Origin: a virus
DNA: 27,604 nt
Strand: one strand, 5' to 3'
IMG/VR virus record: IMGVR_UViG_3300031758_000451
Span: 1-27,604 of that record
Under the pieces are notes generated by a model that was not told where the DNA came from, did no database searches, and worked only from the letters and a program-made list of their open reading frames with translations. Position 1 is the stretch's first letter. Each line of letters opens with the position of its first letter. The position numbers and the translations under genes were made by a program. Below, piece by piece: positions 1,668-23,410 of the stretch.

Positions 1668-2039
1668 ATGAATTTATTCAATTCTTTAAAGAAGATCAGC
1701 GAAAAGTGGCTAAAACCAGTTTCTTTTATAGTTGGCTGCCTTTTATTTTTGTACATTTTTATTGTAGTATTTACGCCAAAAACAAAAATATCTAAAGAGT
1801 CAAGGAATAAATTGGATTCTATAGAATTGCAAATACAGGCTTTGAAAAAACAGCAAGTAAAACAAGACTCGTTGCTTACAGTTGAATCTAACGAAAGAGT
1901 CGCTATCGATAAACAGTTAGAAACGGTAAACAATAAAACTACAATCATTAGAGAGTATTACATAGAAAAATCAAAAGAAGTTTCGAACTACAACTCCACA
2001 CAGTTAGACTCATTTTTCAGATCAAGATACGGATACTAA
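1668..2039 (+). CDS. Small membrane-anchored coiled-coil protein, possible inner-membrane spanin-like
   Basis: 123 residues. A short basic N-terminus is followed by one strong membrane helix at about residues 16-37, then a Lys/Glu/Gln-rich coiled coil (about 42-105) and a C-terminal D-S-F-F-R-S-R-Y-G-Y tail. An N-in anchor with an external coiled coil is the architecture of Rz-type inner-membrane spanins, which span to the outer membrane at lysis. The neighbouring gene 13 bases downstream encodes an exported coiled-coil protein, so the two form a pair. No catalytic motif is seen. It could instead be an envelope protein involved in assembly or superinfection. The membrane topology is confident; the lysis role is inference from architecture and pairing. 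Confidence 0.7.
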   Translation: MNLFNSLKKISEKWLKPVSFIVGCLLFLYIFIVVFTPKTKISKESRNKLDSIELQIQALKKQQVKQDSLLTVESNERVAIDKQLETVNNKTTIIREYYIEKSKEVSNYNSTQLDSFFRSRYGY

Positions 2040-2052
2040 AAATTAAAAAAAC

Positions 2053-2457
2053 ATGAAAAGCATCTTCATCTCCATATTCACAATTTTTTTATTATCTTTT
2101 GCAGAAAAAGCCAAATCGCAAGACACCATAAAAATACCAGTATTTGTAGCTAAACAGATAGCCAAAGATCTAGTATCTTACGATAGCGCTAGAGCAGAGC
2201 TGCTTTTATCAAAACAGAGGATAGACTTACTAAATTTAAAAGTTGATTCTTACAACAAAAGCATTTCAGTGTATCAAGAGAAAGAGGTTAACTACGTAAA
2301 TCAGCTAAATTTATCTGCGGCTAAGTTGGACATTTGGAAGAAAGAATACAACGACTTGGCTAACAGATACAGATCACTGAAGTTAAAAAATACAAGAACA
2401 CAGATAATAGCTGGTGTATTGGTAGGAACTCTAACTTACTTTGCTATAAAACGTTAA
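2053..2457 (+). CDS. Exported coiled-coil protein with C-terminal membrane segment, spanin-partner candidate
   Basis: 134 residues. A typical signal peptide occupies residues 1-23 (hydrophobic core I-F-I-S-I-F-T-I-F-L-L, likely cleavage in A-K-S-Q|D). It is followed by I-P-V-F-V-A-K-Q-I-A-K-D-L, a block that I associate from general knowledge with Bacteroidota-phage proteins. A long helical coiled-coil region runs to about residue 112, then a Gly-containing hydrophobic segment at about 116-131 ends in basic residues. No Cys lipobox is present, so it is not a classical outer-membrane spanin lipoprotein. It follows a single-TM coiled-coil gene and precedes the terminase by 6 bases, so it is transcribed with the packaging genes. 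Lysis or envelope function is an inference. Confidence 0.7.
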   Translation: MKSIFISIFTIFLLSFAEKAKSQDTIKIPVFVAKQIAKDLVSYDSARAELLLSKQRIDLLNLKVDSYNKSISVYQEKEVNYVNQLNLSAAKLDIWKKEYNDLANRYRSLKLKNTRTQIIAGVLVGTLTYFAIKR

Positions 2458-2463
2458 CAAAAC

Positions 2464-4056
2464 ATGAGTACACCGAACGTTGATTTAAGGGACAGAATAA
2501 AAGAGGAGTTTGTTAAGTGCGCCTCTGATCCTGTGTATTTCATGAGAAAGTACTACATGATACAACACCCCACAAGGGGAAGACAGCTGTTCGATCTTTA
2601 CGAATTCCAAGAAAAAGTACTTAAGATATACCAAAACCAAGAGTATGTAATAATAAACAAATCGAGGCAGTTGGGTATATCCACTCTAGTTTCGGCTTAT
2701 TCGCTATGGATGATGCTGTTTAATAAAGATAAGAACGTTCTTGTGGTTGCTACTACGCAATCAACAGCAAAAAACATGGTAACCAAAGTGCGATTTGCGT
2801 ATCAGAATTTGCCAACCTGGTTAAAAATAGGTCACACTGAAGACAACAGGCTTAGTTTAAGGTTAACAAACGGTTCTCAAATAAAAGCTGTATCAGCCGC
2901 CGGTGACGCAACACGTTCAGAAGCGGTATCGTTGCTTGTCATAGACGAAGCTGCGTTCATAGATCGTATCGAAGAGATATTTACCGCAGCTCAACAAACT
3001 CTTGCAACAGGCGGTCGATGCATAGCTCTTTCTACGCCAAACGGAATAGGTAACTGGTTTCACAAGACATACACCAAAGCCCAGAAGAAAGAAAACAATT
3101 TCACCCCCGTAAGCTTGCCCTGGAGAGTACACCCAGAAAGAGACGAGACTTGGAGAGAGCAACAAACAAAGGAGTTGGGCGTAAGAAACGCAGCACAAGA
3201 GTGCGATTGCGATTTCGCCACTTCAGGAAACAGTTACATAGAACCGGACATACTAACCCACTACGAATTGAACACGGTGAGCGAGCCTTTCGAAAGACGT
3301 GGAATGGACAAGGCCCTTTGGATTTGGGAATATCCCGATCCAGTGAAACACTACATGTTGATAGCTGACGTTGCGCGTGGAGACGGAAGCGACTATTCTG
3401 GCTTTCACGTAATAGACATAGAAACAATAACCCAAGTCGCAGAGTACAAAGCGCAAATAGATACAAGAGAGTACGCGAACATTCTTTTAGCGACAGCGAA
3501 CGAATACAATCAAGCTTTATTGGTAGTAGAAAACGCAAACATAGGTTGGGACGTAGTTCAAACCCTAGTTGAAAGGAATTACACAAACTTGCACTACGGT
3601 CACAGGGCAGACAGCGACGGTAGCTTTGAAAAATACGTAGACAGATTCGATAGAGCTGCAGGACTAGTTCCAGGGTTCAGTACAACTCAAAAAACAAGAC
3701 CGCTTGTACTAGAAAAAATGAGAGATTTTATAGAAAACAAAGTGTGTACAATAAGATCTGTAAGACTGTTAGAAGAGTTGCGTGTATTTATATGGAAGAA
3801 CGGTAAACAACAAGCGATGCAGGGGTACAACGATGATCTAGTGATGAGCTTCGCAATAGGCATGTACCTTAGAGAGACTTCTTTGAGATTCAAAAAAACA
3901 ATGAACAACTTGACTAGCGCTACGATAAACAACATAAGTAAAACTAGTCAACCAAACTCTTACTATAACCCAAACAGTTACTATAACGATCCTTGGAGCA
4001 TGAGCATAGCAACTCCACAAGGAAGCGAAAATATAGACATTAGCTGGTTAATATAA
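2464..4056 (+). CDS. terL: Terminase large subunit (T4 gp17-like packaging ATPase/nuclease)
   Basis: 530 residues, slightly shorter than T4 gp17 (610). It is the DNA-packaging motor that docks on the portal, hydrolyses ATP to translocate DNA and cuts the concatemer. The ATPase domain carries a Walker A variant S-R-Q-L-G-I-S-T at 67-74, Walker B L-L-V-I-D-E at 157-162 and a coupling motif A-L-S-T-P-N-G at 188-194. The nuclease domain (from about 285) has the expected acidic triad: D302 in I-A-D-V-A-R-G-D, E356 in L-V-V-E-N-A-N, and D457/D458 in G-Y-N-D-D-L-V-M-S. The C-terminal 50 residues are Asn/Ser/Tyr-rich and probably flexible. The portal gene follows after 4 bases. No small subunit was recognised in the window; it may lie upstream. 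Confidence 0.97.
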   Translation: MSTPNVDLRDRIKEEFVKCASDPVYFMRKYYMIQHPTRGRQLFDLYEFQEKVLKIYQNQEYVIINKSRQLGISTLVSAYSLWMMLFNKDKNVLVVATTQSTAKNMVTKVRFAYQNLPTWLKIGHTEDNRLSLRLTNGSQIKAVSAAGDATRSEAVSLLVIDEAAFIDRIEEIFTAAQQTLATGGRCIALSTPNGIGNWFHKTYTKAQKKENNFTPVSLPWRVHPERDETWREQQTKELGVRNAAQECDCDFATSGNSYIEPDILTHYELNTVSEPFERRGMDKALWIWEYPDPVKHYMLIADVARGDGSDYSGFHVIDIETITQVAEYKAQIDTREYANILLATANEYNQALLVVENANIGWDVVQTLVERNYTNLHYGHRADSDGSFEKYVDRFDRAAGLVPGFSTTQKTRPLVLEKMRDFIENKVCTIRSVRLLEELRVFIWKNGKQQAMQGYNDDLVMSFAIGMYLRETSLRFKKTMNNLTSATINNISKTSQPNSYYNPNSYYNDPWSMSIATPQGSENIDISWLI

Positions 4057-4060
4057 AAAT

Positions 4061-5992
4061 ATGGCAGAAGAACAAAAAAAACCCGAAAACAATCTATTTA
4101 GCGCTCTGAGAAGACTATTCTCTACCGATGTAATCATTCGTAACGAAGGCGGTGGAATGGTAAAAGTCATCGATAGCGATAAGATACAAACGTCAGGCGT
4201 AATACAGACGAACAGTCTTATAGATAGATTCCATAAAGTCTACACAACGTCAACAGCGTACGGTGTTAACATGAACTTGGCGCAAAACTACCAATCAGCG
4301 AGAGTTCAGATATACGCAGATTACGACGCGATGGACACAGACGCTATCATCGCTTCCGCGTTGGACATCATCGCTGACGAGTGTACGTTGAAGAACGAGC
4401 AAGGAGAAGTGCTACAGATACGGTCTTCTGACGAAAACATCCAAAAGCTTCTTTACAACTTGTATTACTCTATACTAAACGTAGAGTTTACTCTGTGGTC
4501 TTGGATAAGAAACATGTGTAAATACGGTGATTTTTACATAAAACTGGAAATAGCAGAGGGTTTCGGAGTGTACAACGTGATCCCGTTCTCTGCCTACAAC
4601 ATAGTTAGACAAGAGGGGTACAACATAAAAAACCCAAGCGAAGTTAGATTTAAGTACGATCCAAACGCAGCTATCGCATCTACCACAGGTTACGGCTCAG
4701 CTTTCAACAACCAAGATACTGGCATCTTCTTCGATAACTACGAGATGGCGCATTTCAGACTCACAGGCGACGTTAACTACCTGCCTTACGGTAGATCTTA
4801 TTTGGAGCCAGCAAGAAAGCTGTTTAAGCAGTATACGCTTATAGAAGACGCCATGTTGATTCACAGGATAGTAAGAGCCCCAGAAAGACGAGTGTTCTAC
4901 GTTAACGTTGGTGCTATACCTCCAAACGAAGTAGAAAACTACATGCAAAGGATGATCAATAAGATGAAAAAAACTCCTTTGATAGATCCCCAGACAGGCG
5001 ATTACAACCAAAAGTACAACGTGCAAAACATGCTCGAGGACTACTTCATACCTGTAAGAGGCAACGATCAGGCCACAAGAATAGACACAGCGAAGGGTCT
5101 GGATTACAACGGTATCGAAGACGTTGCGTACTTTAGAGAGAAACTTTTTGCAGCGTTGAAGGTACCAAAGGCTTTCATGGGATACGAAAAGGATTTGACA
5201 GGTAAAGCGACCCTAGCAGCAGAAGACATACGATTTGCAAGAACCGTAGAAAGGATACAAAGGATCATAGTTTCAGAATTGACTAAGATCGGTTTGATCC
5301 ACCTATACGCTCACGGATACACGAACGAATCAGCTGCCAACTTCACAATATCGTTAACAAATCCGTCTATCATATACGATCAAGAAAGGATTGCGTTATT
5401 CAAAGAAAAGATAGACTTAGCAAGACAAGCGATGGAAGGTCAATTGTTACCAAGAGACTTCATATACGATAAAGTATTCCACTTCTCTGAAGATCAATAC
5501 CTAGAGCTGGAAGACATGATACTAGAAGACCAAAAACGTCTATTCAGATACAAACAAATAGCTGAAGAAGGCAACGATCCATCAGAAACAGGACAAGCGT
5601 TCGGTACTCCTCACCAATTGGCCAGTCTTTACGGAGGCAAAGGTGATATGCCACTTGACGTACCGACAGGATACGATGAAAATAAACCTAAAGACGAATA
5701 CAAATCCCCAGGCCGTCCCCAAAAGCACAAATCTATACGTGGCACAGACGCTAGTTCTTTTGGAAGAGACGCAATGGGTACTTACGATTTAAAATCAAAC
5801 GCTGAAACAGGAGAAGATAACATGAAACCTGAATACCGTGGAGGTCCTTTAGCTTTCGAAAACTCTAACAGCGAATTTTACAAAAACAAAAAAATGTTAG
5901 ATTCAATGTTTTCTTCAAAATCAAGAAAAACAAAATTATTTGAAGAGAGCGATATATTAAACGAAGATAACATATTAACAGATCCGGAGTAA
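4061..5992 (+). CDS. gp20: Portal protein (T4 gp20-like)
   Basis: 643 residues; T4 gp20 has 524. It forms the dodecameric ring at the unique head vertex, nucleates prohead assembly and is the docking site of the terminase. Supporting stretches are the N-terminal D-T-D-A-I-I-A-S-A-L-D-I-I-A-D-E (about 92-107), the central R-A-P-E-R-R-V-F-Y-V-N-V-G (about 277-289), and the helix-rich F-M-G-Y-E-K-D-L-T-G-K-A-T-L-A-A-E-D-I-R segment (about 379-398), all characteristic of T4-type portals. The extra length is mostly a polar, low-complexity tail from about residue 525 onward, rich in Lys, Gly, Asp and Asn. Position directly after the terminase fits. Start ATG follows the terminase stop by 4 bases. 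Confidence 0.95.
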   Translation: MAEEQKKPENNLFSALRRLFSTDVIIRNEGGGMVKVIDSDKIQTSGVIQTNSLIDRFHKVYTTSTAYGVNMNLAQNYQSARVQIYADYDAMDTDAIIASALDIIADECTLKNEQGEVLQIRSSDENIQKLLYNLYYSILNVEFTLWSWIRNMCKYGDFYIKLEIAEGFGVYNVIPFSAYNIVRQEGYNIKNPSEVRFKYDPNAAIASTTGYGSAFNNQDTGIFFDNYEMAHFRLTGDVNYLPYGRSYLEPARKLFKQYTLIEDAMLIHRIVRAPERRVFYVNVGAIPPNEVENYMQRMINKMKKTPLIDPQTGDYNQKYNVQNMLEDYFIPVRGNDQATRIDTAKGLDYNGIEDVAYFREKLFAALKVPKAFMGYEKDLTGKATLAAEDIRFARTVERIQRIIVSELTKIGLIHLYAHGYTNESAANFTISLTNPSIIYDQERIALFKEKIDLARQAMEGQLLPRDFIYDKVFHFSEDQYLELEDMILEDQKRLFRYKQIAEEGNDPSETGQAFGTPHQLASLYGGKGDMPLDVPTGYDENKPKDEYKSPGRPQKHKSIRGTDASSFGRDAMGTYDLKSNAETGEDNMKPEYRGGPLAFENSNSEFYKNKKMLDSMFSSKSRKTKLFEESDILNEDNILTDPE

Positions 5993-6001
5993 ATAATCAT
6001 A

Positions 6002-6009
6002 TATTTATA
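6002..6009 (+). promoter_or_regulatory. Candidate late promoter element TATTTATA
   Basis: ATATTTATAG lies in the 36-base gap after the portal gene, 19 bases before the ATG at 6029. The same ten bases occur at 1642-1651 and 14251-14260. Confidence 0.5.
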
Positions 6010-6028
6010 GGTAGAATCTAATCACAAT

Positions 6029-6877
6029 ATGGCAGTTAAACACAGCAAATATAGAAACACAGCAATTCTGTTTGAATTGTTGGTTAGACAAACAACATCT
6101 GACTTACTACAAAACAGGGATTCGAAGTCTGTTAAGATTTTAAAAAAGTATTTTAGTAATACAGAGTTAGGTAAAGAGTACGCTCTGTACAGTTCGTTTA
6201 ACACTACGCCCAAGTTAACAGAGGGAAAAGCTGAAATGTTCATAAGCACAGTTTTGGACCAAAGAAAAAAATTGGATCAAGAAAAATTGGACAGATTGAA
6301 GTATAACTTGATAAAAGAGATCAAAAGCAATTACGATATCGATAACTTCTTCAAAGCCAAAGTTGACAATTACAAAACTTACGCGTCCATATACACAATA
6401 TTTGAATCTCACACAAACAAATCTTTCGACGTAAAGCAAGTACTTTTAAGTAAAATAAACCTACTAGAACATATAACCGAAGAGAACATCGAAAACAAAC
6501 CGATATCTTCCGTAATGGTAGAGGAGTTTATGAAAGAGGACAAAGAGATTAGACTTCTAGCTTACAAAATAATAGTTGAAAAATTCAATTCAAAGTATTC
6601 GAAATTTTCTGAAAGACAAAAGAACGTTTTAAAAGAATACATAAACAGTGTATCCGATACAGAATACCTAAAAGCGTATCTTAACAAAACCATCAAAGAA
6701 ATAAAATCAGAGCTTGTTTCAATCAAAGATTCGGTTAAAGACGACGTTACAAGGATTAGATTGAAAGAGACTATAAAGCTTTTGGAACCAATAAAGCCAA
6801 ATCAAAGCATAAAAGACGAGAACATATCTAACGTCTTACAGTACTTAGAATTGGTAGAAGAGTTAAAGAAACTTTAG
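6029..6877 (+). CDS. Conserved head-cluster protein, all-helical, function unknown
   Basis: 282 residues, Lys/Glu/Leu-rich, predicted almost entirely helical, no signal peptide, no membrane segment. The N-terminus K-Y-R-N-T-A-I-L-F-E-L-L-V-R-Q and the following T-E-L-G-K-E-Y block resemble a protein that I recall as recurring beside the portal and prohead-protease genes of uncultured T4-like phages. In T4 this position holds the small prohead core genes 67 and 68, so a scaffold or core role is plausible but unproven. It heads a unit with its own TATTTATA element and is followed by the next gene after 11 bases. No enzymatic motif is visible. Confidence 0.75.
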   Translation: MAVKHSKYRNTAILFELLVRQTTSDLLQNRDSKSVKILKKYFSNTELGKEYALYSSFNTTPKLTEGKAEMFISTVLDQRKKLDQEKLDRLKYNLIKEIKSNYDIDNFFKAKVDNYKTYASIYTIFESHTNKSFDVKQVLLSKINLLEHITEENIENKPISSVMVEEFMKEDKEIRLLAYKIIVEKFNSKYSKFSERQKNVLKEYINSVSDTEYLKAYLNKTIKEIKSELVSIKDSVKDDVTRIRLKETIKLLEPIKPNQSIKDENISNVLQYLELVEELKKL

Positions 6878-18200: not shown

Positions 18201-21200
18201 ATGTCATCACTTACAGGACAAAACATAAAAGACACTTACCAATCACTACTAAAAGTAGGCGATAACGGTCAAGTAACAAGCGTAGCTAAAGGAGTTACCG
18301 ATGGATTAGGTAATTCAACCGGCCTATATCTCCAAAACGATGGAGTTCTATTGAGTGGATCCGTTAGCGTGTCTGGAAGTTTAAACGCGTCGGCGTCCTA
18401 CGCACTCACAGCTTCATACGCATTGAACGGTGGCGGCGGAGGCGGCGGAACACCCGGTGGTTCGAATACACAGATACAGTTTAATAGTGCAAATACTTTT
18501 GCAGGAACTGGATCTTTTACTTTTAACTACACAAGTCAAAGCTTACAGCAAGGCTTAACTGTTACGGCTAAAGGACAGTATTCACACGCTGAAGGTCAGC
18601 AAACGGTAGCAGTAGGAGATTATTCACACGCAGAAGGTAATACTACAACAGCAATAGGAGGTTGGTCACACGCAGAAGGATTTGTAACAATAGCAGTAGG
18701 AGGCTATTCTCACGCAGAAGGATCCTTCACAACAGCAATAGGAATCGGTTCACACGCTGAAGGTACTAATACAACAGCAATAGGAAATGGATCACACGCT
18801 GAAGGATTTGTAACAACAGCAGCAGGATTTGCATCACACGCAGAAGGTGAGCGGACAACAGCAGTAGGTGACTACTCACACGCTATCGGTGGATACGTCG
18901 TAGCAATAGGCAACGTTTCACACGCAGAAGGAAGCAATACAACATCAGTTGGAAACAGCTCTCATGCTGAAGGTAATACTACAATAGCAGTAGGTGACTA
19001 TTCACACGCAGAAGGTAGACAGACAACAGCAATAGGAGTCGGTTCACACGCAGAAGGTGGAAGTACGACAGCAATAGGAGGTGGATCCCACACAGAAGGT
19101 CAGTTTACTATAGCAATAGGAGGCTACTCGCATGCCGAAGGTGGTCTTACAATAGCAGACGCTTTATCAGGCTACTTCGGTATACAAGGCTACTCACATG
19201 CCGAAGGTTACTTAACTGTAACATCCGGATCTATAGCTCACGCTGAAGGATATCAAACAACTGCGATAGGGAATATGTCCCACGCTGAAGGCGGCCTTAC
19301 AATAGCAATAGGAGACTATTCACACGCAGAAGGTCTAAGTACAACAGCAGTAGGAAATAGCTCACACGCAGAAGGTCAAAATACAACAGCAGTTGGTTTA
19401 GCATCCCACGCTGAAGGTGACCAAACAACAGCAATAGGAGGTGGATCCCACACAGAAGGTCAGTTTACTATAGCAATAGGAGGCTACTCGCATGCTGAAG
19501 GTAGTAATACAACAGCAGTTGGTTTAGCATCACACGCCGAAGGAAGCAATACAACATCAGTTGGAAACAACTCTCATGCTGAAGGTGGTCTTACAATAGC
19601 AATTGGACTTCAATCACATGCTGAAGGTCGGTTTACAACAGCAATAGGAGGCTATTCTCACGCAGAAGGTTCTAATACAACAGCAGTAGGAACCCACTCA
19701 CACGCTGAAGGTAGTAATACACAAGCAATTGGTGCAGATTCACATGCAGAAGGCGGCTTTACAATAGCAGAGGCACTCACAAGCTATGGTGGTATACAAG
19801 GCTACTCACATGCTGAAGGTTACCAGACAGTGACGTCAGGCTCGATGGCTCATGCTGAAGGATATCAAACAACTGCGATAGGGAATATGTCCCACGCAGA
19901 AGGTCAAAGCACGACTGCAGTAGGACAACAATCACACGCAGAAGGATTTATAACAACAGCAATAGGAGACAGCTCACACGCAGAAGGTCAAGGTACAAGA
20001 GCGGTAGGACAACAATCACATGCAGAAGGTTCTAGTACAACAGCGGTAGGAAACAATACACACACCGAAGGTGACCAAACAACAGCAATAGGAGGTGGAT
20101 CCCACACAGAAGGTCAGTTTACTATAGCAATAGGAGGCTACTCGCATGCTGAAGGTGGTCTTACAGTAGCAAATGCTGTTTCTGGTTATAATACGTTATT
20201 TGACGGATTTGGTACAATTCAAGGCTACTCACACGCTGAAGGATTCAAGACAGTAACATCAGGATCAGCAGCACACGCTGAAGGTTACCGTACAACGGCT
20301 TTAGGCAATTTATCCCACGCTGAAGGTTCACTTACGAAAGCAACAGGAGATGTTTCACACGCTGAAGGTAATAATACAACAGCTATAGGCACAGGTTCAC
20401 ACGCAGAAGGTCAAAGCACAACAGCGGTAGGACGAGGATCGCACGCAGAAGGAATTGGTACAATAGCAGTAGGAGACTATTCTCATGCTGAAGGTACTCA
20501 AACAACAGCAATAGGATATGTATCACACGCAGAAGGTAACAGGACGACAGCAGTAGGAGACTATTCTCATGCTGAAGGATTTGTAACGATGGCAATAGGA
20601 GGCTACTCACACACCGAAGGGTTTACTACAACAGCAATAGGAGATTGGTCACACGCAGAAGGTGTAGCAACAACAGCAGTAGGAGTTTACTCACATGCAG
20701 AAGGTGAATTTACAACAGCAATAGGAACTGGCTCACACGCAGAAGGATTTGTAACAATAGCAGTGCAACGCAATTCCCACGCTGAAGGTAGTGGTACAAT
20801 AGCATTAGGAGGCTATTCTCATGCTGAAGGTTCTCAAACAACAGCAATAGGAACCCACTCACACGCTGAAGGTGAACGCACAATAGCATTAGGCCAATCA
20901 TCACACGCAGAAGGTGCAAGTACAGTAGCTTCTGGCTCTTACCAACTAGCTATAGGCGGATATAACACTCAGGGAGATGATAAATCGGCTTTCATAATTG
21001 GCGCTGGAAGTATACTGACCAGAGCAGACGCTCTTAAAGTACAAGTATTTAATAGCAGTGGATTACAAAACGTAGGCACGCTTGCAACAAGCTCAGTAGT
21101 GCTACCTCAAGTATCACAATCTCTTAACTTTGCAGACGATACTGCAGCCGCAGCTGCTGGTGTTCCGCTAGGAGGATTGTATCACACAACAGGTACCATA

Positions 21201-21218
21201 AAGATAAGATTGACATAA
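18201..21218 (+). CDS. Giant repeat fibre / adhesin with 54 SHAEG beta-roll units
   Basis: 1005 residues. Residues 1-75 form an N-terminal region with A-S-A-S-Y-A-L-T-A-S-Y-A-L, a motif shared in style with the 1269-residue fibre. A Gly-rich hinge (about 77-87) follows. Residues 126-912 are 54 tandem units, usually 14 residues, consensus x-x-S-H-A-E-G-x-x-T-T-A-I-G, resembling YadA/Hep_Hag head repeats that form a trimeric left-handed beta-roll. Three units (14, 28, 37) carry 9-16 residue insertions ending I-Q-G. The C-terminal ~90 residues (F-I-I-G-A-G near 933) are a cap domain. No membrane anchor is present, so this is a phage tail fibre rather than a bacterial autotransporter. Thr at unit position 10 recurs in almost every unit, making many possible O-glycosylation sites. 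The two glycosyltransferase genes follow. Confidence 0.88.
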   Translation: MSSLTGQNIKDTYQSLLKVGDNGQVTSVAKGVTDGLGNSTGLYLQNDGVLLSGSVSVSGSLNASASYALTASYALNGGGGGGGTPGGSNTQIQFNSANTFAGTGSFTFNYTSQSLQQGLTVTAKGQYSHAEGQQTVAVGDYSHAEGNTTTAIGGWSHAEGFVTIAVGGYSHAEGSFTTAIGIGSHAEGTNTTAIGNGSHAEGFVTTAAGFASHAEGERTTAVGDYSHAIGGYVVAIGNVSHAEGSNTTSVGNSSHAEGNTTIAVGDYSHAEGRQTTAIGVGSHAEGGSTTAIGGGSHTEGQFTIAIGGYSHAEGGLTIADALSGYFGIQGYSHAEGYLTVTSGSIAHAEGYQTTAIGNMSHAEGGLTIAIGDYSHAEGLSTTAVGNSSHAEGQNTTAVGLASHAEGDQTTAIGGGSHTEGQFTIAIGGYSHAEGSNTTAVGLASHAEGSNTTSVGNNSHAEGGLTIAIGLQSHAEGRFTTAIGGYSHAEGSNTTAVGTHSHAEGSNTQAIGADSHAEGGFTIAEALTSYGGIQGYSHAEGYQTVTSGSMAHAEGYQTTAIGNMSHAEGQSTTAVGQQSHAEGFITTAIGDSSHAEGQGTRAVGQQSHAEGSSTTAVGNNTHTEGDQTTAIGGGSHTEGQFTIAIGGYSHAEGGLTVANAVSGYNTLFDGFGTIQGYSHAEGFKTVTSGSAAHAEGYRTTALGNLSHAEGSLTKATGDVSHAEGNNTTAIGTGSHAEGQSTTAVGRGSHAEGIGTIAVGDYSHAEGTQTTAIGYVSHAEGNRTTAVGDYSHAEGFVTMAIGGYSHTEGFTTTAIGDWSHAEGVATTAVGVYSHAEGEFTTAIGTGSHAEGFVTIAVQRNSHAEGSGTIALGGYSHAEGSQTTAIGTHSHAEGERTIALGQSSHAEGASTVASGSYQLAIGGYNTQGDDKSAFIIGAGSILTRADALKVQVFNSSGLQNVGTLATSSVVLPQVSQSLNFADDTAAAAAGVPLGGLYHTTGTIKIRLT
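19068..19135 (+). repeat. 68-bp tract present identically three times in the fibre
   Basis: The same 68 bases occur at 19068-19135, 19428-19495 and 20082-20149, encoding the end of one unit, S-H-T-E-G-Q-F-T-I-A-I-G and the following G-Y-S-H-A. The second and third copies are identical over 90 bases (19413-19502 and 20067-20156). Confidence 0.9.
19242..19285 (+). repeat. 44-bp tract duplicated at 19854-19897
   Basis: The bases encoding A-E-G-Y-Q-T-T-A-I-G-N-M-S-H-A are identical at 19242-19285 and 19854-19897. Both copies follow an insertion-bearing unit and a 13-residue unit, so they are part of a larger super-repeat. Confidence 0.85.
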
Positions 21219-21220
21219 AC

Positions 21221-21242
21221 AAAAATAATTGTTATATTAATA
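21221..21242 (+). promoter_or_regulatory. Promoter-like motif of the glycosyltransferase operon
   Basis: AATAATTGTTATATTAATA sits in the 27-base gap after the fibre stop, ending 3 bases before the ATG at 21246. It matches 1133-1154 apart from two positions. Its presence implies that the glycosyltransferases can be transcribed separately from the fibre. Confidence 0.45.
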
Positions 21243-21245
21243 GCT

Positions 21246-22367
21246 ATGAAAGTTTTAGTTATATTCCCTGACAGCATTTCTACGCCTACAGGAGGCCTTG
21301 GTGTGCAATTTAAGAACATACACTCTAGGTTAAAAAACAAGATAGATTTTTACGTGGCAGGTTACCCAGACGGCCCAAACGGGGTTGATAATTACGTAGG
21401 GGTTTACCACCCTATACCGTCAATAAAACACGGATCTGTTAACACTTTGTTGGGCCACACTATATACCTGGCAGAAGCTTTAAAGTTTCCAAAACCTGAT
21501 GTAGTTCACGCGTACGATTGGTCCACTTACTTTGCTGGGGTTTACTTAGCACAAATACACAACGTACCGTTGCTTTTATCAATGCAACTTTCAGCAAACG
21601 CGATGGTCTCTGCTGGAATTACAAACTGTTACGACTTCAATACAGTAGACGGTTACTGGTTGCACAAAGCTCACGTAGAGACTGAATGGTTTGGTCTGCA
21701 AAAAGCAGATAAAATTATAAACGTTTCTAAAGGGTACGCAAAGTATTTCCCTCAGTTCTCCAATAAAACTACGATCATACCAAACGGAATCGATCTAAAA
21801 GATTGGCAACCCACAGACAAAGTCAAATTACCAGGAGATAGAAAACACAAGATCGTCTACATAGGTCGTTTTTCCTTAATGAAATCAACAGACGTTTTAC
21901 TTGACGCAGAAATACCAGAAGACGTAGATCTAATATTTGTTGGATCTTACAATGGAGGAGATCATGCGTGTGTATCCAAACTAGAAAAAACCATCGGAAA
22001 TAAACCGGGGTTTCACTATTACGGTCCCGTGTACGAACAAGACAAAGTAAATTTACTGCATTCAGCCGACGCAGTCATAATGCCCAGCAAACACGAACCC
22101 TTCGGTATCGTAGCGTTGGAGGCCTTAGCGTCTAAAAACGTATTAATAGCTTCCAGAGTAGACGGGTTGGGGGATTTTTTGAATGACGATAATAGCATCA
22201 ACTGCGGATTAACAGCAGAAGACATGTCAGCAGCTATGCACAAATTCACACAATTAAGCGATTTAGAGAGGGAAAACATGATTGAAAACGGTCTTAAGAC
22301 GTGCGAACAGTACAAATGGGACGAAATAGCCGAAGAATATTACGAAGTTTATAAATCTATGCTATGA
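21246..22367 (+). CDS. GT-B fold glycosyltransferase, family 4-like
   Basis: 373 residues, full length for the family. N-terminal domain: M-K-V-L-V-I-F-P start strand and G-G-L-G-V-Q loop at 16-21, which contacts the donor phosphate; V-V-H-A-Y-D-W at 86-92 is also typical. C-terminal domain: I-P-N-G-I-D at 178-183, K-I-V-Y-I-G-R-F-S at 202-210, and the E-x7-E motif in H-E-P-F-G-I-V-A-L-E with E284 and E292. It transfers an activated sugar to an unknown acceptor; the donor cannot be read from the sequence. No membrane segment or signal peptide. The stop overlaps the next ATG (ATGA), so it is translated together with a heptosyltransferase-like enzyme. It lies directly after a Thr-rich repeat fibre, which is a candidate acceptor. 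Host surface glycans are the alternative. Confidence 0.88.
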   Translation: MKVLVIFPDSISTPTGGLGVQFKNIHSRLKNKIDFYVAGYPDGPNGVDNYVGVYHPIPSIKHGSVNTLLGHTIYLAEALKFPKPDVVHAYDWSTYFAGVYLAQIHNVPLLLSMQLSANAMVSAGITNCYDFNTVDGYWLHKAHVETEWFGLQKADKIINVSKGYAKYFPQFSNKTTIIPNGIDLKDWQPTDKVKLPGDRKHKIVYIGRFSLMKSTDVLLDAEIPEDVDLIFVGSYNGGDHACVSKLEKTIGNKPGFHYYGPVYEQDKVNLLHSADAVIMPSKHEPFGIVALEALASKNVLIASRVDGLGDFLNDDNSINCGLTAEDMSAAMHKFTQLSDLERENMIENGLKTCEQYKWDEIAEEYYEVYKSML

Positions 22368-23410
22368 AAGTAAAAGTAAGTTACGTTACCCAAAACCCGA
22401 CTACATTAGGTTCACCAACGATAGCTGTCGCAGATTCACCTTACGAAAAAATACTTGGAGATTTGACAGATCTGTCTGATAACACGTCTTACAAAATAGA
22501 GTTAAACAAACAGAACAACTTTACTTATTTTGGTCCAAAACAGTGGTTTGGTCATTGGGATGTAAAATTACACAATCCGTTTGGAAAACAGATACACTCA
22601 GAGACCTACGATGCGACTGGTAAAACTGTCTTCATCAAGATAGACGCATCAGCGCTGGGAGACAATCTGGCTTGGATAGACTACGTGGATCAGTTTAGAG
22701 TCAAACACAATTGCAACGTTGTATGTTCGACTTTTTTTAACGAACTGTTTATAGACTCGTACCCAAAGATAATGTTTGTAAAACCAAACACTAGAATAGA
22801 TAATGTCTACGCGCAGTATTACGTAGGAACAAACAACCATTTAAATCGTGTGTACCAACCATCTTTGTATTTAGATAACCCTTTACAAAAGATAGCATCC
22901 GATATATTGGGATTGAAATACCGAGAGTCCGTAGCTAAGATAAAGTTACCCACTCATTTACAGAAGAAAAAACAAGTTACCATAAGCGAATACGCCTCTT
23001 TAAGAGTCAAAGAGTGGAATGTAGTGGGTGGCTGGCAGTCTATAGTAGATCTGTTTAACAGTTTAGGTTTTGAAGTGATAGTAATAAGCAAAGAATACTC
23101 TTACTTACAAAACGTAACTAACAAATCAGGAGATCTTCCATTAGAGGATAGGATTAAGGACATATACCAATCCAAGTATCACGTAGGACTGTCAAGCGGT
23201 CTATCGTGGTTAGCCACAAGCTGTTGTACGCACACATTTTTGATATCAGACTTTACTCCACCGTATCACGAAATAAAATCAAACGTAACTAGAATATACA
23301 ACGAAACACACCCAAGAGACTCAATAACCTACTCAGAAGTGAAAAATCCAGTAACCATTGAGCACGTCCTAGACAAAATAAGACTAAAATTAAACAAAGA
23401 CGGTTATTAA
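22364..23410 (+). CDS. TibC-like (autotransporter strand-loop-strand) O-heptosyltransferase
   Basis: 348 residues. In bacteria such enzymes transfer heptose from ADP-heptose to Ser/Thr of repeat adhesins. Matching blocks are A-L-G-D-N-L-A-W-I at 97-105, C-S-T-F-F-N-E-L-F at 121-129, P-L-Q-K-I-A-S-D-I-L-G-L-K-Y at 173-186, G-G-W-Q-S-I-V-D-L at 222-230, V-I-V-I-S-K-E at 238-244, G-L-S-S-G-L-S-W-L at 275-283, and L-I-S-D-F-T-P-P at 293-300. The Cys-x-x-Cys plus W-C iron-binding finger normally found near the C-terminus of TibC is not seen: after T-R-I-Y-N (309-313) there are no cysteines. Cys287-Cys288 is present instead. Cytoplasmic. It overlaps the upstream glycosyltransferase by 4 bases. The family match is by remembered blocks, not alignment; another acceptor or sugar is possible. 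Confidence 0.8.
   Translation: MKVKVSYVTQNPTTLGSPTIAVADSPYEKILGDLTDLSDNTSYKIELNKQNNFTYFGPKQWFGHWDVKLHNPFGKQIHSETYDATGKTVFIKIDASALGDNLAWIDYVDQFRVKHNCNVVCSTFFNELFIDSYPKIMFVKPNTRIDNVYAQYYVGTNNHLNRVYQPSLYLDNPLQKIASDILGLKYRESVAKIKLPTHLQKKKQVTISEYASLRVKEWNVVGGWQSIVDLFNSLGFEVIVISKEYSYLQNVTNKSGDLPLEDRIKDIYQSKYHVGLSSGLSWLATSCCTHTFLISDFTPPYHEIKSNVTRIYNETHPRDSITYSEVKNPVTIEHVLDKIRLKLNKDGY

Follow-up and report, generated by a model that had tools for sequence, protein, structure and literature searches.

The locus analysed here raises the question of whether a phage can glycosylate its own fibre with enzymes encoded beside it. To our knowledge, glycosylation of a virion fibre by a phage's own enzyme has been little studied. 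The window, i.e., the whole stretch of DNA that was analysed, is a 27,604-base IMG/VR virus record; it is a phage fragment with a T4-like late module, and its major genes are all on the plus strand (Table 1). The phage is tailed and aquatic. Among cultured phages, the nearest terminase is that of Flavobacterium phage vB_FspM_immuto (56%), followed by that of Microcystis phage Mel-JY01 (52%), the latter phage being annotated with the gene order terminase, gp20, gp23, and PhoH. A Bacteroidota host is likely.

Gene content of the window

The initial annotation placed a repeat fibre gene, a GT-B family 4-like (GT4) gene, and a TibC-like gene in that order at 18201-23410, which is borne out by Pfam and NCBIfam profile matches. 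It also described ATGA overlaps in this cluster. The GT4 and TibC-like genes do share 4 bases, but a 27-base gap separates the fibre stop from the GT4 start. The open reading frame (ORF) for the predicted membrane protein starts on the stop of the TibC-like gene (1-base overlap). The second fibre-like protein contains a short collagen-like stretch and GSLFGTASWA motifs; it is a neighbour whose membership in the cassette is not shown. The fibre-GT4-TibC-like region recurs without any difference on two other contigs, L002 and L003.

Table 1. Positions of the genes and repeats of the fibre and glycosyltransferase region
Feature	Positions	Strand	Evidence
Phage fibre, proposed acceptor protein, 1005 aa	18201..21218	+	PF05658 E 1.8e-84; PDB sequence matches
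54 units of a 14-aa repeat, SHAEGxxTTA[IV]Gxx	18582..20942	+	Motif count
GT-B family 4-like glycosyltransferase, 373 aa	21246..22367	+	PF00534 7e-21, PF13439 6e-12
Fingerless TibC-like (BAHT-type) putative O-glycosyltransferase, 348 aa	22364..23410	+	TIGR04414 6.3e-48; TibC 4RAP; model; residues
Predicted membrane protein, 82 aa	23410..23658	+	Sub-threshold membrane-family matches only
Second fibre-like protein, 1269 aa	23736..27545	+	Weak PF01391, tail-fibre PHROGs

A recount of the fibre repeats gave the 54 units claimed earlier, comprising 53 [SA]H[AT][EI]G units and one THTEG unit. The fibre matched the Pfam YadA head repeat (YadA_head) in 27 stretches and passed its gathering cut-off (277 bits versus 25), and no membrane-anchor family of trimeric autotransporter adhesins was found in the Pfam scan of this protein. 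Its matches among PDB sequences were BpaC (7O23, 3e-15), BoaA (3S6L), and YadA (1P9H). A single-sequence model of the fibre had a pLDDT of 92, and Foldseek returned BpaC and BoaA only at E >1. Units are numbered here S1 H2 A3 E4 G5 x6 x7 T8 T9 A10 I/V11 G12 x13 x14. Thr8 is present in nearly all regular units of the window fibre, and position 9 is Thr or Ser in about 60% of them. His2 occurs in all 54 units and Glu4 in nearly all; the stacked His/Glu ladder is perhaps buried or metal binding.

A TibC-like enzyme with a conserved active site

TibC of ETEC and AAH of DAEC are bacterial autotransporter heptosyltransferases (BAHT, TIGR04414). The only NCBIfam match of the 348-aa phage enzyme was to TIGR04414 (hepto_Aah_TibC), at 163.6 bits and thus below the curated cut-off of 200 bits, for which the absence of the iron finger described below may be responsible. 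In a PDB sequence search, the only match was TibC (4RAP/4RB4). An AlphaFold model built from 30 relatives (pLDDT, 95.3) was closest in structure to TibC (Z, 35.7; rmsd, 2.1 Å; 334 residues, model residues 1 to 348), and the predicted fold comprises the barrel and GT-B parts of TibC, including the N-terminal barrel region. The next structural matches were GT9/WaaC/WaaF enzymes (Z, 18 to 20).

In TibC, Asp110 is the candidate catalytic base, the sugar is held by Thr226, Lys230, Arg286, and Trp305, and residue 300 sets stereoselectivity, being Pro in TibC but Ser in AAH, an enzyme that accepts either ADP-heptose (PMC4358343). The phage residues D100, S212, K216, R263, S277, and W282 correspond to TibC D110, T226, K230, R286, P300, and W305, so that S212 is a conservative change and the other four catalytic and sugar-contact residues are kept. 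The catalytic Asp, the Lys, and the Trp were identical in 30/30 relatives and the Arg in 29/30, and Ser277, the equivalent of AAH Ser294, was found in 24/24 clade members. The TibC-type assignment made earlier is thus supported by the active site, the predicted fold, and the profile match, but the score lies below the cut-off and the iron finger is missing. By its active site the enzyme looks like a TibC-type transferase; we refrain from counting it as a BAHT member in the strict sense because one defining feature of that family, the iron finger, is absent.

The fold similarity to GT9/WaaC, together with a GT4 partner of a kind often found in polysaccharide synthesis, would fit transferases that both modify host surface glycans or lipopolysaccharide (LPS) to block superinfection, or that modify host proteins. 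We consider such targets very improbable, since members of the nearest family act on proteins, the alignment with TibC extends along the full length of the enzyme with the N-terminal barrel included, the gene context is late and structural, and the fibre covaries with the enzyme at Thr9 (see below).

Absence of the iron finger

The iron finger of TibC consists of four Cys residues (339, 342, 358, and 370); TibC depends on it both to form the dodecamer and to be active, and the finger follows the right-handed helix of TibA (PMC4358343). It is absent from the phage enzyme, with 0 to 1 Cys after residue 300 in place of the four ligands of TibC. Scans of viral contigs recovered two main kinds of TibC relatives, fingerless proteins of ~345 aa and proteins of ~400 aa or fused proteins with the finger. 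In a maximum-likelihood tree, 34 short phage enzymes formed one clade (support, 100/100); the finger is missing in all members of the short clade and present in most of the wider relatives. One long viral protein outside the fingerless clade (L347) also has no recognisable finger. The sister pair of the fingerless clade (90/91), L052 and L146, has kept the finger, and both genes already lie beside a SHAEG fibre. This placement suggests that the enzymes became partners of SHAEG fibres before they lost the finger.

Finger-bearing and fingerless enzymes also occur together on single contigs, namely, on L017 (1-327 and 7261-8289) and on the contig shared by L035 and L146, and in both cases the fingerless enzyme adjoins a SHAEG fibre. 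Elsewhere, finger-bearing TibC-like phage genes are found in a recurring late block (L039, L040, L044, L045, L048, L059, L062, and L067) with the order large glycosyltransferase (650 to 900 aa), GT4 (~315 aa, sometimes fused to the TibC part), TibC-like gene, and ~82-aa protein, followed by genes resembling those for tail sheath and tail tube. These blocks are candidates for a second, larger set of virion-modifying enzymes. In L062, a 1425-aa collagen-like fibre (1760-6037; PF01391, 5.9e-125) lies directly upstream of the large glycosyltransferase, GT4, and finger-bearing TibC genes, and it is a possible collagen-type acceptor. The product annotated as an FkbM methyltransferase in Microcystis phage Mel-JY01 (PP395634.1:4750-8430; L287) holds a TibC-like domain, so that the annotation is likely incomplete.

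Association of the fingerless enzymes with SHAEG fibres

Enzymes were clustered at 90% identity, and association was defined as a YadA-head fibre within six ORFs. A SHAEG fibre was nearby in 17/36 fingerless clusters and in 3/53 clusters of other TibC relatives (Fisher p 5e-6). Control loci anchored on the capsid gene of the window had a fibre in 5/80 cases (p 8e-7 versus the fingerless clusters), and clustering at 70% identity gave 12/27 fingerless versus 3/36 other clusters (p 0.002). Gene order and accessory enzymes vary among the enzyme-fibre loci. In two phages (contigs of 140 kb and 128 kb), the enzyme gene is upstream of the terminase and SHAEG fibres are elsewhere on the contig.

The adjacency expected from the window therefore holds for part of the clade, but the other 19/36 fingerless clusters have no such fibre nearby. 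Retention of the transferase in the absence of a repeat fibre, which the initial annotation regarded as counterevidence, was partly observed: on several related contigs of one sub-branch, up to 149 kb long, a fingerless enzyme is kept while neither a SHAEG fibre nor another kind of repeat fibre was detected, and no YadA-head match or obvious repeat fibre was found on enzyme contigs G014, G017, and G021 (97 to 149 kb, possibly incomplete). Conversely, the enzyme was absent from 48/50 tested contigs with other SHAEG fibres, and the fibre thus does not need the enzyme. In L023 to L028 and L033, the fingerless enzyme gene lies among small genes near a thioredoxin-like gene, and no repeat fibre of any kind accompanies it.

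No SHAEG fibre accompanies the enzyme in the branch formed by L023 to L028, L033, and L038, and finger-bearing phage relatives precede tail sheath genes or adjoin a collagen-like fibre. Both observations would be expected if the enzyme glycosylated another virion protein, such as a second fibre, a capsid decoration protein, or a sheath-associated protein, and if its adjacency to SHAEG fibres reflected the clustering of late tail genes; glycosyltransferases of the mycobacteriophage Corndog structural operon have likewise been proposed to modify capsids (PMC4351075). We regard this explanation as unlikely, since the excess of Thr9 follows the enzyme also where it is encoded at a distance from the SHAEG fibre, and since finger-bearing relatives, although also located in tail modules, rarely occur with SHAEG fibres.

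Covariation of Thr9 with the enzyme

If the enzyme modifies the fibre, then enzyme-linked fibres should be richer in acceptor residues. A comparison of Ser/Thr between linked and unlinked fibres, made separately for all 14 positions of the unit, singled out position 9. The frequency of Thr9 was 0.52 in 15 linked clusters and 0.28 in 53 unlinked clusters (p 1e-6), the strongest of 83 residue/position tests (next best, p 5e-3), a covariation that is a correlation among fibres partly of common ancestry. The linked fibre exceeded the mean of the three most similar unlinked fibres in Ser/Thr at position 9 in 15/15 comparisons (Wilcoxon 6e-5). Units matching those peptides in the scan for unlinked fibres that had Ile or Met at position 9 were removed before the tests. 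Fibre contig L145, first classed as unlinked, has Thr9 frequencies of 0.50/0.54, and a fingerless enzyme was found elsewhere on it; because this contig stayed in the unlinked group during the tests, the contrast is on the conservative side. When the repeat proteins were deduplicated at 50-45% identity, almost all of them fell together, and the result carried no information.

The effect was also seen in a test set of ten fibres that had been fetched or read after its discovery and had not been used for it, comprising six fibres adjoining fingerless enzymes and four fibres in G001 and G002 with the enzyme far away. All ten had Thr9 frequencies of at least 0.43 (mean, 0.54; p 1.3e-5, or p 1e-4 without L292/L293), with the p values overstating independence because the ten fibres represent about six enzyme lineages.

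The initial annotation had pointed to a recurrent Thr10, which is T8 if the unit is taken to start two residues earlier. This near-invariant Thr was rejected as the acceptor, being equally frequent in fibres with and without the enzyme; instead T9 covaries, and on these sequence comparisons Thr9, rather than Thr8, is the likely acceptor. Overall Ser/Thr content did not differ between the groups (p 0.14) and was discarded as a signal of the enzyme. The Thr9 signal could be a lineage effect, with Thr-rich fibres and the enzyme both residing in one phage or host group, as would fit the small number of independent lineages and the opposite shift of Ser/Thr at position 11 (0.35 in linked versus 0.50 in unlinked fibres). 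However, no other residue or position comes close to Thr9, the nearest-neighbour comparison was uniform, and the linked enzymes are scattered across the clade, and we therefore judge a lineage effect to be quite improbable.

Register of the repeat and proposed exposure of Thr9

In left-handed beta-roll heads, Gly is conserved at layer position 8, residues 5 and 7 form part of the trimer core, and, as described for BpaC, loop insertions occur between positions 14 and 1 (PMC9543794). G5 is invariant in the SHAEG units, with the invariance of His and Gly beyond the window being partly by construction because the unit search required both. All long insertions in the window fibre, three in number, lie between A10 and G12, and insertions in other fibres also spare the SHAEG half. 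Since the invariance of G5 and the insertion sites match the layer rules, we infer the register S1=4, H2=5, E4=7, G5=8, T8=11, T9=12, I11=14, and G12=1, in which T9 would be on the outer strand facing the solvent and the His and Glu residues would be in the core. Owing to the pseudo-symmetry of seven residues, the units could also adopt another register, as in the PDB sequence alignment, with T9 turned towards the core, and the single-chain fibre model permits no choice between the two registers. Of all steps in the mechanism proposed below, the exposure of Thr9 is the weakest.

Accessory genes

The GT-B family 4-like assignment was upheld, with Glycos_transf_1 (7e-21) and Glyco_transf_4 (6e-12) both over the Pfam cut-off, and the profile search proposed for the two transferases thus gave matches for each. 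Models of the glgA-like type in NCBIfam matched the GT4 protein well under their cut-off. A GT4 partner conserved across loci was rejected: this gene was seen only in the window and the identical contigs L002 and L003, BLAST against other glycosyltransferase neighbours of TibC-like genes gave no significant match, and matches in the phage database were only 23 to 29% identical. With a distribution so limited, a role of GT4 in extending the first sugar stays a guess.

Pairs of sulfotransferase and APS-kinase genes adjoin a SHAEG fibre and a fingerless enzyme in two layouts (L007:7854-10004 and L030:11447-13298); the gene order of L010 is similar to that of L007, and the L030 locus also carries DUF2827. 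These neighbours fit a modification cassette, suggesting a sulfated sugar.

Proposed mechanism

We consider it probable that this phage relative of TibC and AAH O-glycosylates its own SHAEG fibre at Thr9, where it would most likely attach a single heptose or a related sugar. Fibre self-glycosylation, as put forward in the initial annotation, is well supported by the active site, the predicted fold, the gene association, and the Thr9 covariation, but the acceptor Thr differs from the one first named and about half of the clade has no such fibre nearby. The fibre and the enzymes would be expressed late in infection, and the TibC-like enzyme would transfer the sugar to Thr9 of many fibre layers in the host cytoplasm, after which GT4 would perhaps lengthen it and the decorated fibre would be assembled into the virion. 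In the absence of the finger with which TibC reads the right-handed helix of TibA, the phage enzyme would have to recognise the left-handed YadA-like roll by another route.

The sugar would most likely be a heptose, or a related nucleotide-activated sugar, drawn from the host. No hldE gene (TIGR02198 match) was found in the 12 phage contigs searched; a phage-encoded supply of ADP-heptose was therefore rejected, which leaves the host to supply the donor. HldE-like matches at 1e-80 or better were present in 126/149 genomes sampled from the class of the Bacteroidota genome G076, 15 of them over the curated cut-off, which makes host ADP-heptose a plausible donor; another nucleotide sugar could also serve.

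A fuller scenario has about even chances, falling if anything on the doubtful side: an adhesin heptosyltransferase would have become, in a phage clade, a glycosylation enzyme for left-handed beta-roll fibres and lost its finger after the switch to SHAEG fibres, and the fibres would have gained an acceptor Thr in about half of their layers, resulting in dozens of sugars per chain that in some phages are perhaps sulfated. Sequence data alone suggest the enzyme, its substrate, the residue modified, and a conceivable course of evolution, all of which are directly testable. If the mechanism is correct, an adhesin-decorating enzyme could be retargeted to another repeat fold and would provide a compact O-glycosylation tool for beta-roll scaffolds. 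It would also explain why genes for sugar modification are seen close to phage fibre genes in aquatic viromes, and the modification could affect receptor binding and adsorption, fibre stability, and recognition by bacteria and their defences.

Comparison with known systems

We found no report of a phage heptosyltransferase of this kind in the open-access literature, most subscription journals being outside the search. In Corndog, the glycosyltransferase genes inside the structural operon are proposed to modify virion proteins; Corndog belongs to another phage group than the window, and its proposed substrate is the capsid, without a suggested acceptor site (PMC4351075). Glycosyltransferases in virion gene blocks are thus already known. 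The LPS heptosyltransferases WaaC and WaaF (GT9) share the catalytic fold with the phage enzyme (Z, about 18.5), but their matches span only residues 87 to 348, without the N-terminal barrel, and are far weaker than that of TibC. With the YadA-head trimeric adhesins BpaC, BoaA, and YadA, the phage fibre shares 14-residue repeats (PF05658) that may likewise form a left-handed beta-roll, whereas it has no membrane-anchor match and is distinguished by the SHAEG motif with its near-invariant His and Glu. The closest known systems are TibC and AAH, to which the phage enzyme is related by sequence homology, the predicted N-terminal barrel and GT-B fold, the catalytic Asp, the sugar-contact residues, and a gene adjoining that of a repeat adhesin. 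It differs from them in being phage encoded and without an iron finger, and its partner would be a left-handed YadA-type roll, probably modified at Thr, rather than a right-handed helix.
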